Shown piece by piece: positions 25,778 to 30,607 of a DNA stretch of 64,000 nt (positions are counted from its first letter, which is position 1; the number at the start of each line of letters is the position of its first letter). The notes beneath the pieces were generated by a model. It worked only from the letters and a program-made list of their open reading frames with translations. It made no database searches and was not told the DNA's origin. The translations under genes were made by a program, and so were the position numbers. Source of the DNA: Pseudomonas sp. MAG733B (GTDB lineage Bacteria; Pseudomonadota; Gammaproteobacteria; Pseudomonadales; Pseudomonadaceae); NCBI RefSeq assembly GCF_036884845.1, contig NZ_CP145732.1, forward strand, positions 1,054,001-1,118,000, in the 5' to 3' direction.

Positions 25778-26758
25778 ATGACCACAGTTCAGAATCTTTA
25801 CTCCGCCTTAGACAAGCAGGGCATTTCGAAAAGAAAGCTCGCTCTTCTGCTGCCTGACTGGTGGACAGATGAGGTAGAGGCATCACCTTCAGGTGTGCAA
25901 CAAGCCAAGGTTTATTTGGCCAAAGCATTAAGTCTGCGTATGCGTCCTTTCAGTGAGACGCCTCCCCGGATTGAGTTCGACTTACCGGCGGATAAGCGCT
26001 TCAAAAAGTCTGCCAAGACCTCTGAAGCAGATGTGAATCTTGCGGTTGCCTTGGCTCGTAGTGCCTCGCGCCTCGCGCTTTCTGCGTTAGACACTCAATT
26101 CGTTCCGCCTCCACCGGACGCACTGGTGATTCGCGAGCACTTGCTTTCATCGGGGGCTCCTTGGGTGGGGTTGTCTGCGCTGCTCGACTATTGCTGGAAC
26201 ACTGGCATCCCAGTCATACACCTGGCTACACCTCTGCTCGGTCGAAAAATGGACGGTATCGCCATGGCGATCAACGGCCGGCCATCGATCGTTCTTTCTA
26301 ACAATCGAAAAAGCGGTTTCTTGCTTTTCCATTTGGCACATGAGCTCGGGCACATTGCCTTGGGGCATGTCGGCGCAAATGGAACGATTGTTGATGATGA
26401 AATTAAAAAAGACGACGATCTGGGCAAAGACGCTGATGAGCTTGCAGCGGACCAGTTCGCTATCCAGTTATTGACTGGGAATGCTCATGGCAATCTAACG
26501 CTTCAGCACTTGATCAAAGCACCTGTGCTGGCCCGGCAAGCAGTGCAGTATGGGGCAGAGCATAAAATCGATCCTACACACATCGTTTTAAATTGCGCTC
26601 ATAACGATAAGCGGCTTTTCCCGTTGTGTGTTTCTGCTGCAAATTTTATCGCTGGAGAAAGCACAGATCAGTCGTTGGTTTCAGACGTTGTTTTTCGGCA
26701 TCTGCAAGGAAACCTAAAGCACGACAGCGAGCATTTACTGCGGAAACTTATCGCATAA
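25778..26758 (+). CDS. ImmA/IrrE-family metallo-endopeptidase (putative antitoxin/regulator)
   Basis: The 326-residue cytoplasmic protein contains a zincin motif HELGH (FHLAHELGHIALGH, around residues 187-200) with a downstream ELAADQFA helix that supplies the third ligand region, as in ImmA/IrrE (COG2856) proteases. The N-terminal 60 residues (NLYSALDKQGISKRKLALLLPDWW) look like a degenerate XRE-type helix-turn-helix. The SD GGGAGGAGGG at 25764-25773 is exceptionally strong. The stop abuts the next ATG (TAAATG), so the two are coupled. Fusions of Xre and Zn-peptidase domains are known partners of toxin genes. Base composition is visibly more AT-rich than the neighbouring core genes, suggesting transfer. 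Confidence 0.8.
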   Translation: MTTVQNLYSALDKQGISKRKLALLLPDWWTDEVEASPSGVQQAKVYLAKALSLRMRPFSETPPRIEFDLPADKRFKKSAKTSEADVNLAVALARSASRLALSALDTQFVPPPPDALVIREHLLSSGAPWVGLSALLDYCWNTGIPVIHLATPLLGRKMDGIAMAINGRPSIVLSNNRKSGFLLFHLAHELGHIALGHVGANGTIVDDEIKKDDDLGKDADELAADQFAIQLLTGNAHGNLTLQHLIKAPVLARQAVQYGAEHKIDPTHIVLNCAHNDKRLFPLCVSAANFIAGESTDQSLVSDVVFRHLQGNLKHDSEHLLRKLIA

Positions 26759-27400
26759 ATGATTCTCCTCACCGACAACGACATATTGGTAAAGCTTGCT
26801 CAATGTGACTTGATTGATGAGGCTTTGGCAGTTTTTCAGTGCGGGCTTAGTGATTGTTACGTTCTAGACAGTGCCAAGCATTCTCTCTACTTAAATGACG
26901 TAGAAAAGTGCGTATCCAGACGCGTCGGCAGCTACCAATCTTATGATCGGCTTTGTAATCTCGTCCAGTCCTGCTGCGTGCTTGATGCGGCCGATGAAGA
27001 TCTGGATTTCATGGACGAATTGCTTCAAATTGACAGCGTCGACGATGGCGAGCTTTTGCTGTTGATGCATGCTTTCTCTCTCTATCAAAATCAACAGCCT
27101 TACTCATTTACCACAGGTGACAAACGCGCACTCGTCGGTATCTCGATGTCACAGTCCGATAGAGCCAAGCAGATACTTTTCCAGCGGGTGGAATGTGTCG
27201 AGTCAATCATTCTGAAAGCAATTCGAATATATGGTTTTGCGCATATCAGCACGAAACTTATACAAGCTCAGGCTCTTGTTGCTGAGGAAAAATATGACAA
27301 GGTTTTGAGAATGACTTTCGGTGCTGGACGTGATGAACATCACTCTAATGCATGCCTTTCTCAATACCTCGCACCCATCGGCCAGTTCATAAAGCCCTGA
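26759..27400 (+). CDS. PIN-like domain protein, putative toxin paired with the ImmA-like gene
   Basis: The 213-residue protein begins MILLTDNDILVKLAQCDLID, the pattern of the first acidic strand of a PIN-type nuclease. A mid-protein DDGELLLLMHAFSL segment with acidic residues and a later TGDKRAL, the usual position of the final PIN Asp, follow. The remaining 80 residues are helical. PIN proteins are Mg2+-dependent ribonucleases and common toxins. The gene starts directly after the stop of the protease gene. I could not verify family membership without a profile search; an uncharacterised partner protein is the alternative. Confidence 0.6.
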   Translation: MILLTDNDILVKLAQCDLIDEALAVFQCGLSDCYVLDSAKHSLYLNDVEKCVSRRVGSYQSYDRLCNLVQSCCVLDAADEDLDFMDELLQIDSVDDGELLLLMHAFSLYQNQQPYSFTTGDKRALVGISMSQSDRAKQILFQRVECVESIILKAIRIYGFAHISTKLIQAQALVAEEKYDKVLRMTFGAGRDEHHSNACLSQYLAPIGQFIKP

Positions 27401-27420
27401 CTTATGTACGAACTCGGAAG

Positions 27421-27454
27421 GGCACCGAAGCCGGCTGAGCCCGCCAAGCAGTGA
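27421..27454 (+). pseudogene. Duplicated 3' end of motB (remnant)
   Basis: Bases 27422-27454 encode APKPAEPAKQ and a stop, matching the end of MotB (KPAEPPKH stop at 24816) with several substitutions. They are followed at the same spacing by an identical terminator hairpin. The fragment has no start and is not translated. It represents a different motB allele left behind the inserted genes. Confidence 0.85.
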
Positions 27455-27459
27455 CCTAC

Positions 27460-27489
27460 AAAAAAGCCGACAGTGATGTCGGCTTTTTT
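27460..27489. terminator. Second copy of the motB terminator, shared by converging genes
   Basis: AAAAAAGCCGACA (27460-27472) / TGTCGGCTTTTTT (27477-27489), identical to the hairpin at 24822-24851. Being symmetric, it can also end the minus-strand TIR-caspase-TIR operon, whose last stop is at 27504-27506. Confidence 0.9.
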
Positions 27490-27503
27490 GTGCGCGATGA
27501 CTT

Positions 27504-27995
27504 TTAGAATCCGCGAATGATTCGAGACTTGAGATCCGTATGGAACCGATCGGCATTCGTCCTGTTCACGCTGCGCGTCGACTCACTGCCGGTCACGGAT
27601 TCCAGCGACATCGAGCGCTTGAGCGTCGATTCATTGCGATACGCATCAATAAAGAACTCGATGTCCCTTTCACTGCTCAGCTTCGGCCATTTGTCGAGGT
27701 ACAGCGGCAGCTCTGTCGGGCCGGTCTTGAATGAGCAGATGCGTCGGTTGGTGATGGTCGCCTCGCCAATTTCGAACGGCACCCACCAGGACAGCGCGGT
27801 TTTCTCCGAGACCACTGCCAGCAGGTGCGTGCATTCGCTGATGTTGCGGGTGATGACCCCGGTGATGTCGTCGGTGGTCTGGGATTCGGCGTCCAGCACG
27901 TCGAGATAAGTCTTGATGTTCGCCTGCATCAGGCGTGTGTTGATGTTGATCGCATAGGCGCGATCCATGTGGCGGTAGCTGATAAACACTGGCAT
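27504..27995 (-). CDS. TIR domain protein (third gene of TIR-caspase-TIR operon)
   Basis: The 163-residue protein is a canonical TIR domain: PVFISYRHMD at the N-terminus, then LLAVVSEKTALSWWVPFEIGEA, where W71-x3-Glu75 gives the catalytic Glu of NAD-cleaving TIR enzymes. The C-terminal 50 residues (KRSMSLESVTGSESTRSVNRTNADR) look flexible. The ATG at 27995 overlaps the caspase gene's TGA by one base (TGATG), so translation is coupled; a longer in-frame reading to 28127 would only overlap the caspase. Inferred role: second producer of a cyclic-ADP-ribose-like signal, or NAD-depleting effector. It differs clearly from the first TIR of the operon. Confidence 0.88.
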   Translation of the reverse strand: MPVFISYRHMDRAYAININTRLMQANIKTYLDVLDAESQTTDDITGVITRNISECTHLLAVVSEKTALSWWVPFEIGEATITNRRICSFKTGPTELPLYLDKWPKLSSERDIEFFIDAYRNESTLKRSMSLESVTGSESTRSVNRTNADRFHTDLKSRIIRGF

Positions 27996-28954
27996 CAGAA
28001 ATGTCCCTTGATCGCGAGTTCGCGGTAATAGGCGCCGAGCGCGGTGAGGCGGCAACCTGTGGAGTGAATGGCGGCGTAGTACATGTGTTCGGCATCCACC
28101 GGTTCGATCAGGCTGTGGCGATTGCACTTTTGCAGTTGGGCGAAGACATCGCCGTGTTCCGGGTTGAAATCAGGTTCGGTGGGCTCAAAGCTGGGGGCGA
28201 GGGGGTACACCGATTCCGCTTCGGCAAACCATTCGGGCAGCTTGCGCAGAATTTCCTTGGAGATCAGCGGCGACACTTCGCGCAGGGAGATGAACTGCGA
28301 CACGTTGGTCTTGAATACCGGTCGCTGCTCCCAGGCATCGAGCGCGTTATCGACAAACGAGTAGAGGCTGCCGGGGGTGATCTTGCCGAGGATGTTCGCG
28401 GCGCCGCCGTGCAGCGCCTGGAGCAGTAATCCGGTGAACACGCCGTGCTGCCCGCCTTCCATGGCCGGCTCTTCCTTTTTGCACGCTGTGAGAATGGTCA
28501 TGCCTTCGCCGACCACGCTGCCTTCGCTACGCAAGGCGCGGAGTTCCCCGGCCGAGCCGCTCTGGCAGCAGTCGAGAATGATCACTTTGTTTTTGATCTT
28601 CGTGGCTTTGCTCGCCCAGTTGAGAATGTCGCTAAGGCGAATCCCGTCCTTGGCGCTCTTGTAATCTTGCGGAATCAGCATGCCTTCGTCGGTATCGGTG
28701 TCGAACGTGCCGTGCCCGGCGAAATACAGCAGCGCGACATTGCAATCGCCGGAAAACAGCTCGCGGATCTGGTCTTCGAGCTTTTCCCGGCTCAGGTAGT
28801 CTTCGGCGGAGTTCAGTACGATGTTCTTGAAGTTCGGATCGCCATTGGCGTCGGTCTTCAGCACGGAAGCCATGGCCATGGCGTCATTGCAGCAACCGTT
28901 CAAACGCGAAACATGGGTGTAGTCGTTGATGCCGATAAACAGTCCCTTGCGCAT
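27995..28954 (-). CDS. Caspase-like (peptidase C14) protease between two TIR genes
   Basis: The 319-residue cytoplasmic protein opens with a typical caspase-fold start (MRKGLFIGINDYTHVSRLNGCCNDA). It has the catalytic His81 in LLYFAGHGTF and the catalytic Cys130 in VIILDCCQSG, with an acidic S1-like environment expected for Arg- or Asp-type cleavage. After the p20/p10-like core (about 1-225) there is a 90-residue C-terminal module (residues ~250-319: VFAQLQKCNRHSL..AEHMYYAAIHSTGCRLTALG) that could be the ligand sensor. The gene begins 2 bases after the first TIR stop. Inferred role: effector protease activated by TIR-made signal in a Thoeris-like defence. Confidence 0.88.
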   Translation of the reverse strand: MRKGLFIGINDYTHVSRLNGCCNDAMAMASVLKTDANGDPNFKNIVLNSAEDYLSREKLEDQIRELFSGDCNVALLYFAGHGTFDTDTDEGMLIPQDYKSAKDGIRLSDILNWASKATKIKNKVIILDCCQSGSAGELRALRSEGSVVGEGMTILTACKKEEPAMEGGQHGVFTGLLLQALHGGAANILGKITPGSLYSFVDNALDAWEQRPVFKTNVSQFISLREVSPLISKEILRKLPEWFAEAESVYPLAPSFEPTEPDFNPEHGDVFAQLQKCNRHSLIEPVDAEHMYYAAIHSTGCRLTALGAYYRELAIKGHF

Positions 28955-28956
28955 GA

Positions 28957-29364
28957 TCAGGCCACCGTATGCAGGCGAATGGCTTTGACGATGCTGCCGG
29001 TGTTCCACGCACACTCGGCGTGAGCCGCATTGCGCACCACTGTGGAGATCCGCTCGGCGCCGAACGGTTTGATCGCGATGATCACCTTGCCCATGCGCTT
29101 GGCGATGTCGATTTCCTTGTTGATCCACTTGCTGTAGGTGGAATACATGCCGGCCATGATCAACACGGCGGAGCAGGGGCGGATCTTGTTTTCGATGGCT
29201 TCTTCGAGTTGCTTGTCGGTGCGGGCGCCGAGGATCGGGTTGTGCGGCGGCACGGAGAAATTCTTGAAGGTGAAGTCGGGTTGCGCGTTCAACAGGCGCA
29301 CGAGATTGTCGTGGGCGTGAGGGTAGTTCCACGAATGGCTGATGAACAAATGGTAGGTTTGCAA
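28957..29364 (-). CDS. ThsB-like TIR protein (DUF1863), first gene of the operon
   Basis: The 135-residue protein has the ThsB/DUF1863 signature: HLFISHSWNY at residues 5-14, FTFKNFSVPPHNPI, and YSKWINKEID, where W80-x3-Glu84 is the catalytic Glu. ThsB proteins of Thoeris sense phage infection and convert NAD+ to a cyclic-ADP-ribose isomer. The start is a TTG at 29364, supported by GAGGGA about 7 bases upstream on this strand (near 29372-29377) and by the conserved beginning; no ATG is available. The stop and the next ATG are separated by 2 bases. The 155 bases upstream should hold the operon promoter, which I cannot assign. Confidence 0.88.
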   Translation of the reverse strand: MQTYHLFISHSWNYPHAHDNLVRLLNAQPDFTFKNFSVPPHNPILGARTDKQLEEAIENKIRPCSAVLIMAGMYSTYSKWINKEIDIAKRMGKVIIAIKPFGAERISTVVRNAAHAECAWNTGSIVKAIRLHTVA

Positions 29365-29537
29365 AGGTTGTCCCTCGGTGTCGCAGGAGTGCGAAGAGGG
29401 TTTGAACTTAGGCCAATGGTTGGCGGCTACAAGGGGGAGGAAGTTAAAGAGAAATGTCCTACAAGTGCGCGTGCAGGCGCCTTACAGAAAGTTCTGATGT
29501 TTGGCTGGCAGGGGAATTAAACAGTAGAACCGGCAAT

Positions 29538-29565
29538 CCACCGCCCCGTTTGTTCGGAGCGGTGG
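29538..29565 (-). terminator. Hairpin downstream of rsgA
   Basis: CCACCGC/GCGGTGG stem with a 14-base loop, 11 bases beyond the rsgA stop on the minus strand. No T-tract follows, so termination may be Rho-assisted. Confidence 0.5.
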
Positions 29566-29575
29566 ACGGGCCTGT

Positions 29576-30607
29576 TTAGTAGCCGTTTTCCGGCAAACTG
29601 GCGATGATCGAGCGATAGCTGTTCATCCGTTGCTGCTGCACGCGGCCATCTTCCAGAGCCTTGAGCAGTGCGCAACCAGGTTCACGGTCGTGCTTGCAGT
29701 CGCGGAAACGACACGTGCCGAGCAAATCGTTGAACTCGATGAAGCCGGCCTCGACGTCGGCACGGCTGACGTGGCCCAGACCGAATTCGCGGATGCCCGG
29801 GGAGTCGATCAGCTCACCGCCACCGGGGAAGTGGAACAGTCGCGCGGTGGTCGTCGTGTGAGTGCCCTGGCCGGACAGCTCGGACAACGGGCCGACGCGG
29901 GTTTCGACTTCCGGCAACAAGCTGTTGACCAGCGACGACTTGCCGACGCCAGACTGGCCGACGAACACGCTGATGCGCCCGTCCAGTTGCTTCTGCAGTT
30001 GCTCCATGCCGTTGCCGTGGTGGGCCGACACTTCGAGCACCGGATAGCCGAGCGTGCGGTAAACCGCCAGCAGGGCATTCAGCGCCGGGGCGTTGTTCTC
30101 GTCGATCAGGTCGAACTTGTTCAGCAGCAGCAACGGCTTGATGCCCGCGTGTTCGGCGGCTACGAGGTAGCGGTCGATCAGGTTGGCATGGGGCTCGGGC
30201 AGCGGCGCAAACACGATGACGATCATGTCGACGTTGGCCGCAACCGGCTTGAGCTGACCACGGCTGTCCGGGCGGCACAGCTCGGTGTTGCGCGGCAGTT
30301 GCGCCACGATCACGCCGATGCCCTGGTTGCCGGCACGCCAGACCACCTGGTCGCCAGTCACCAGCGCCGGCAGGTTGGCGCGCAGGTGGCAACGGAACAC
30401 CTGGCCGGCCAACTCGCCATCGCGGGCCTCGACCTCGACCTGCACACCGAAGTGCGCGATCACCAGGCCGTGCTGTTCCGGGCCCAGGTCGCCACCCTCA
30501 AGTGCCTCGACAGCCGAGGACTCGCGTTTGGCGGCGCGGGCAGCGCGCTCGCCCTGAATCTTTTCGATGCGCCAGTTTTGACGACGATTGAGTTGGCGTT
30601 TGGCCAT
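29576..30607 (-). CDS. rsgA: Small ribosomal subunit biogenesis GTPase RsgA
   Basis: The 343-residue circularly permuted GTPase (YjeQ) helps late 30S assembly. It has an N-terminal OB-fold (about 45-105), then the permuted G domain with the G4 motif NKFD at 163-166 before the P-loop GQSGVGKSS at 217-225, and a C-terminal zinc finger ([15 protein letters not shown]). The motif order G4 then G1 proves the permutation. It is divergent from orn with a 107-base gap, as in most gammaproteobacteria. Confidence 0.96.

Follow-up and report, generated by a model that had tools for sequence, protein, structure and literature searches.

The operon analysed here carries two dissimilar TIR genes, TIR1 and TIR2, around one caspase-like protease gene and is best labelled a two-TIR type IV Thoeris. 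It most likely represents a variant of that type with two sensors and one effector (probability about 0.6), since each TIR can apparently serve the caspase without the other. By analogy with the known systems, a role in phage defence is expected. Through TIR-caspase immunity, defence in bacteria is connected with the cell-death machinery of animals. Should both TIRs feed the caspase independently of each other, a single operon would monitor two kinds of phage trigger, and natural strains lacking TIR1 would provide a ready-made genetic separation of the inputs.

Operon organization and gene families

The window, that is the whole stretch of 64,000 nucleotides analysed, covers positions 1054001-1118000 of the host chromosome, a single 6.65 Mb contig. 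The operon lies on its minus strand between rsgA and motB (Table 1), and the loci with matching neighbours belong to Pseudomonas. The tight cluster of three minus-strand genes described in the first-pass annotation was confirmed in its coordinates; the gap from the TIR1 stop to the caspase start is 2 nt, and the caspase stop and the TIR2 start have one base in common. The promoter scan gave no sigma-70-like promoter in 27400-29700, and the hairpin of Table 1 was absent from the three sites given by the sequence scan.

Table 1: Features of the operon, in window coordinates
Feature	Position	Strand	Remarks
AAAAAAGCCGACA-TCAC-TGTCGGCTTTTTT hairpin, likely terminator	27460..27489	-	read from sequence; 3' of TIR2
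TIR2, TIR_2-family TIR	27504..27995	-	163 aa; W71-x3-E75
C14 caspase-like protease, predicted effector	27995..28954	-	319 aa; H81 + C130
Caspase C-terminal tail, residues 273-319	27998..28138	-	near-constant across allele classes
Protease core, about codons 10-272 of the caspase	28139..28927	-	exchanged block, class A vs class B (L072 against L091)
TIR1, ThsB-type TIR (PF08937)	28957..29364	-	135 aa, TTG start; F7, W80-x3-E84
GAGGGA, likely ribosome-binding site of TIR1	29371..29376	-	read from sequence; upstream of the TTG

The families assigned earlier, a ThsB-like TIR, a C14 caspase and a TIR of a different subfamily, are in accordance with Pfam. TIR1 matched PF08937 (ThsB_TIR; E 1.3e-14, 54.9 bits, passing the gathering cut-off of 21.2 bits), the caspase PF00656 (Peptidase_C14; E 4.5e-19) and TIR2 PF13676 (TIR_2; E 7.4e-12), with a weaker second match of TIR2 to PF08937 (E 8.4e-5; 23.4 bits, above the cut-off of 21.2). 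The TIR domain is the sole Pfam domain of TIR2 and the conserved part along its length, the C-terminal third being variable. The intact caspase His81/Cys130 and the W-x3-E motif claimed for both TIRs were read from the sequence as well (TIR1 W80-INK-E84, TIR2 W71-VPF-E75). Two features of type IV Thoeris were found, namely TIR and caspase-like protease genes in one operon and an intact TIR catalytic glutamate and caspase His/Cys dyad. The profile search of the three proteins, which had been proposed as a check, supported the caspase, ThsB and TIR families and gave no match to a type IV Thoeris model in NCBIfam or PADLOC-DB 2023. In PADLOC-DB 2023 the caspase matched the generic 'caspase' model (8e-20) and the TIRs matched ThsB and other TIR-type models; against NF047832 (caspase, EACC1-associated type) the score was 97.5 bits, below the curated cut-off of 140 bits.

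Sampled loci and catalytic residues

A relative of the caspase (E <= 1e-20) was present in 50 of 398 genus genomes, the window's own counted. The scan of the genome collection gave 242 relatives, and the best 80 were kept (78 Pseudomonas, 1 Pseudoalteromonas and 1 Alteromonadaceae bacterium). The cassette adjoins rsgA in 78/78 of these Pseudomonas loci and in 19/19 further loci, whose caspase DNA is non-identical to any of the 80 (duplicates removed; the window's own not among them). The rsgA-site set therefore comprises 97 loci drawn from the best 80 of 242 and the 19 more, the window and the decayed loci L130 (G204) and L132 (G376) being left out; it was selected by caspase, and sites without any caspase fall outside the counts. 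Random association or artefact was ruled out by the conserved cassette in the 97 loci.

Outside the rsgA site 42 loci were compared, 25 from genomes, plasmids and a phage collection (L103, L104, L120-L124, L126-L129, L135-L148) and 17 from viral contigs (L172-L188). The plasmid loci come from 12 records (10 plasmids and both phage-collection records) chosen out of 43 records of plasmids and 2 of the phage collection. No caspase pair among the 42 is identical over the last 900 nt, and near relatives were not thinned. A fragment (L125), a broken locus (L131), shorter views of L147 and L148 (L133 and L134) and partial or distant loci (L189-L198) were left out. Two-gene TIR1-caspase relatives occur on plasmids of Pseudomonadota, Actinomycetota and Bacillota. 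The 17 viral contigs, all from IMG/VR, also bear TIR-caspase systems, so that prophages or phage-like elements probably carry them as well.

Among the best 80 of 242 relatives, W-x3-E was present in 75/75 full-length TIR1 (read as TWINKE in L091 and as YWITRE in L107 and L111) and SWWVPFE in 78/78 TIR2, so these motifs are not due to chance. In an alignment of 19 diverse TIR1 only F7, S37, E84 and W120 were invariant. Of these 80, L105 and L111 have an interrupted caspase, and the caspase of L062 is truncated at a contig end. The caspase of L104 has its catalytic Cys.

The motB-rsgA interval looks like a site of variable cargo. In the window it also holds, at 25778-27400 on the plus strand, a gene for an ImmA/IrrE-type peptidase (PF06114) and, directly after it, one of 213 aa with no Pfam match above cut-off; only L069 shares this pair among the 78 Pseudomonas loci from the best 80 of 242. 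The distance from TIR2 to motB exceeds 600 nt in 15 of the 69 loci (among L033-L112) that extend as far as motB.

The TIR1-caspase core and the addition of TIR2

The question whether TIR2 always travels with the other two genes was answered differently at the two kinds of site. At the rsgA site TIR2 was found in 96/96 readable loci, the 97th (L062) running off the contig edge. Outside it, a TIR1-type gene accompanies the caspase in 42/42 loci and TIR2 does so in 9/42 (L103, L122, L127, L129, L135, L136, L147, L148 and L184). This indicates a common core made of TIR1 and the caspase alone, to which TIR2 is recurrently added. TIR2 has no fixed position, being upstream of TIR1 in L122 and L127. 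Some of these counts carry details of reading. The TIR1 of L147 crosses a contig end, and its two pieces were read by eye; that of L184 is on the opposite strand and more than 1 kb off, and the caspase of L135 is apparently split into two frames. L182 stops at the caspase stop codon, where a downstream TIR2 would be out of view, and in L137 an annotated TIR-domain gene about 2.4 kb downstream, cut by the end of the stretch, was left unclassed.

Other genes adjoin some of the pairs. In three loci the gene after the TIR1-caspase pair is subtilase-like (S8), namely at L122:6258-7448 (by Pfam), L137:3507-4664 (by record annotation) and L127:5886-7058 (by reading the sequence), a hint of a two-protease variant. 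Genes apparently for membrane proteins adjoin other TIR-caspase pairs: an ion-channel-like gene (PF07885) at L121:6361-6939, and genes with hydrophobic stretches and no Pfam match above cut-off at L126:3749-4525 and L128:5219-5743.

Loss of TIR1 at the rsgA site and selection afterwards

Both TIRs are kept in 90/97 rsgA-site loci (the TIR2 of L062 being out of view), and TIR1 is deleted in the other seven (L061, L075, L077, L083, L095, L020 and L022). All seven deletions are in frame and leave a remnant of 23-55 aa that keeps the start together with the final codons and the stop. The 2-nt gap from remnant to caspase is preserved, and translation from the remnant into the caspase may therefore still be coupled. 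No frameshift or nonsense change of TIR1 was found in the remaining 90 loci, and this mode of loss was ruled out, 7/7 losses being in-frame deletions. The chance of all deletions being in frame is 1/81 for four events, or 1/243 if the shorter remnant of L022 is an extra event, the number of events being a reading of trees and remnant lengths. In the 75-row caspase tree the first five losses need four changes, also with well-supported branches only; L020 and L022, whose losses were found later, join the clade of L075 and L077. These four, L077 being from P. siliginis SWRI31, form a TIR1-less clade of four species with support of 100/100 (caspase and TIR2, 9-row tree). Recombination at the rsgA site complicates the trees.

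The caspase and TIR2 are under purifying selection in this clade. Over all six pairs the dN/dS (pairwise Nei-Gojobori, no branch model) was 0.05-0.12 for the caspase and 0.02-0.08 for TIR2, and neutrality was rejected in five comparisons (binomial tests assuming 75% of sites to be non-synonymous, p <= 7e-12). The intact pairs tested gave 0.005-0.07 for the caspase, slightly below the TIR1-less clade, in which some relaxation is possible. For TIR2 they gave 0 to 0.11 in the TIR domain and up to 0.26 in the whole gene, where the high values involve L067, with a TIR2 of different length compared without gaps. Gene exchange at the rsgA site could bring in new copies once TIR1 is lost, yet the four-species clade is monophyletic.

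Search for TIR1 elsewhere in the TIR1-less genomes

The PF08937 profile gave no match in the genomes of L061, L075 and L077, their own TIR2 included, which indicated its limited reach. It matched once in the L083 genome, just behind the caspase (its TIR2), and three times in the L095 genome, at its own TIR2 and the two TIRs of L129. A profile built from 19 diverse TIR1 was stronger (controls G268 1.2e-50, G213 8.6e-43). It found no match in the genomes of L022, L061, L075 and L077, only a 45-position match at the remnant in that of L083, the TIR1 of L129 in that of L095 (1.5e-45) and, in the L020 genome (G098), two weak matches (3.7e-5 and 1e-3) in a separate TIR cluster about 2.2 Mb off. A TIR1 protein query returned nothing in the L020 and L022 genomes and found two intact control genomes. 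By these searches, supply of TIR1 from elsewhere was rejected for five of the seven genomes (L022, L061, L075, L077, L083). From the 19-TIR1 profile search, the caspase and TIR2 thus appear to be kept without another TIR1-type gene in these 5/7 genomes; in L095 and L020, complementation by L129 and by the TIR cluster, respectively, might occur.

The second set in the L095 genome, L129:2398-4262 (G269:C177), has the order TIR1-caspase-TIR2, and its caspase is 47% identical. The cluster at L201:2077-6473 (G098:C1, about 3.03 Mb) has several TIR-like genes, one of them ThsB-like, in a genome with a TIR1-deleted rsgA site; no caspase was noticed there among ORFs of at least 150 aa.

Allele exchange and predicted structure of the caspase

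The rsgA-site caspases were split at 84% identity to L041, giving 46 loci of class A and 26 of class B among 72. The caspase tree recovers A and B as separate clades with good support, and L079, which was counted as B, falls in neither. The window caspase belongs to class A and is up to 97-98% identical to its members. Over 66 loci the mean protein difference of the caspase was 0.08 within A, 0.11 within B and 0.26 between them. The corresponding values were 0.11, 0.15 and 0.14 for TIR1, 0.19, 0.19 and 0.22 for TIR2 and 0.10, 0.10 and 0.11 for rsgA DNA, so that these three have little or no A/B split. The comparison of L072 with L091 in 80-nt bins showed 91-100% identity in the rsgA end, TIR1 and TIR2, only 62-84% over about codons 10-272 of the caspase and 96-98% in its last codons. 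The exchanged block has a fuzzy 5' edge and a sharp 3' edge, and three more A/B pairs have a similar, less sharp block. A quick rsgA+orn tree requires 11 changes of class label, no fewer than 7 on well-supported branches. The block pattern and these class changes show that the effector core moves between operons while the TIRs and the tail stay. By sequence comparison, the protease core is represented by two divergent alleles that have been repeatedly exchanged, both TIRs and the last ~47 residues of the caspase staying in place. Such exchange would be expected if the link from TIR to effector is a diffusible signal and not a pair of matched protein surfaces.

Structure prediction, which had been proposed as a check on the caspase C-terminus, gave a confident alpha/beta region there. 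AlphaFold2 with 38 sequences gave a mean pLDDT of 88.2 and a pTM of 0.84, with residues 231-319 at 94-97 and residues 131-150 and 161-170 poor; an earlier model with 20 close sequences had a mean pLDDT of 69.4 and left the C-terminal region unresolved. Residues 1-228 gave structural matches to MALT1, metacaspases and caspases, a PDB sequence search returned metacaspases and MALT1 only, and fold searches were filled by caspases. The helix-strand order of the model gives the impression of a winged helix in this region. The tail (273-319) lies within it and is a candidate part for signal sensing or assembly.

Proposed mechanism and alternatives

The usual partner of the caspase is TIR1, to which TIR2 is an addition; a sensing role is presumed for each. 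In the proposed mechanism, the simplest in view of the described type IV system, infection would trigger one of them, and the triggered TIR would turn NAD+ into a cyclic-ADP-ribose-type signal, possibly N7-cADPR as in the described type IV system. The signal would then switch on the caspase-like protease, which would degrade cell proteins and so stop phage growth. The first-pass annotation had left two sensors, two signals and a second effector side by side; the comparative data favour two separately sufficient inputs. It had also named separable genes as grounds for rejection. This was found in half: TIR2 is missing from most TIR1-caspase loci elsewhere and TIR1 from the seven rsgA-site loci, in a patterned and not a random manner. 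That the genes separate both ways speaks for two inputs, each usable on its own.

The main competitor, considered unlikely, is an obligate sensor-cyclase pair, in which one TIR, on binding a phage protein, would bring in the other to make the signal. It has a precedent in the S. aureus type I Thoeris ThsA-ThsB1-ThsB2, where capsid-bound ThsB1 recruits and activates ThsB2 (relevant passages of PMC12578639), and the retention of both TIRs in most rsgA-site loci fits it. The TIR1-less loci with a selected caspase and TIR2 speak against it, as do the TIR1-caspase loci of other lineages without TIR2, so that neither TIR is universally needed. The TIR1-less loci, the purifying selection and the five genomes without another TIR1 thus favour two inputs to one effector.

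A less probable explanation is that the TIR1-less loci are disarmed, TIR1 being the sole cyclase and its core removed against autoimmunity, with the caspase and TIR2 persisting for a while or for other use. The universal partnership of TIR1 with the caspase elsewhere would agree with this, and the TIR1 remnants look unconstrained (L075 vs L077, dN 0.27 and dS 0.12 over 33 codons only). Decay does occur: in the decayed rsgA-site cassette L130:5686-6663 (G204) no TIR was found and the catalytic Cys of the caspase reads Phe, and the interrupted caspases of L105 and L111 are further cases. The dN/dS of the caspase and TIR2, far under 1 in four species after the loss, and the catalytic residues, intact in 7/7 TIR1-less loci, count against disarmament. 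Selection on both genes might serve another role, which would count against the two-sensor reading.

That TIR2 is a second, NAD+-depleting effector beside the caspase and not a signal maker is very improbable, as TIR effectors typically carry a separate ligand-binding domain and Pfam gives TIR2 its TIR domain only, and as TIR2 in the TIR1-less loci would be without an upstream signal maker. The intact W-x3-E of TIR2 would suit such a role, and some bacterial TIRs are NAD+-depleting effectors according to passages of PMC12847820.

The two-sensor reading can be extended, tentatively and at somewhat less than even odds, to an OR gate. The two TIR inputs would be interchangeable and separately sufficient, the caspase would be selected with either alone, and its core would be swapped repeatedly between two old classes with sensors and tail unchanged, a pattern to be expected from an arms race with phage factors that block the protease. 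The swapped core suggests that phage counter-defence targets the effector as well as the sensors, and the tail, being constant, points to a place where the signal may be read.

Comparison with known systems

Type IV Thoeris was reportedly described by Rousset et al. in 2025 (Science 387:510). In the passages of PMC12847820 and PMC13373217 covered, its TIR gene adjoins a caspase-like protease gene, as here, and in those of PMC12847820 the TIR makes N7-cADPR upon infection. Compared with type IV Thoeris as known from these passages, the present operon adds a dissimilar second TIR, translationally coupled after the caspase, and its family has TIR1-less derivatives and two exchanged protease-core alleles. 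The literature searches gave no treatment of two-TIR type IV systems in the passages and sections covered.

The matches of the caspase to the MALT1 paracaspase and metacaspases of the PDB have about 20% identity and stop short of its C-terminal ~90 residues. The E. coli CFT073 type II Thoeris also has two ThsB proteins for one effector, which differs in being a TM-macro protein; the active-site Tyr of EcThsB2 contrasts with Phe here (first-strand motifs LFIS and VFIS, judged by motif only), as far as the passages of PMC11204291 go. A catalytic glutamate is no proof of cyclase activity, since S. aureus ThsB1 has one that is dispensable (PMC12578639, in part). The S. aureus type I system, as presented in the same part of that paper, resembles the present operon in its two TIR proteins per effector and differs in the effector ThsA, which has a STALD domain and degrades NAD+ and is not a caspase, and in that its two TIRs work as one complex.
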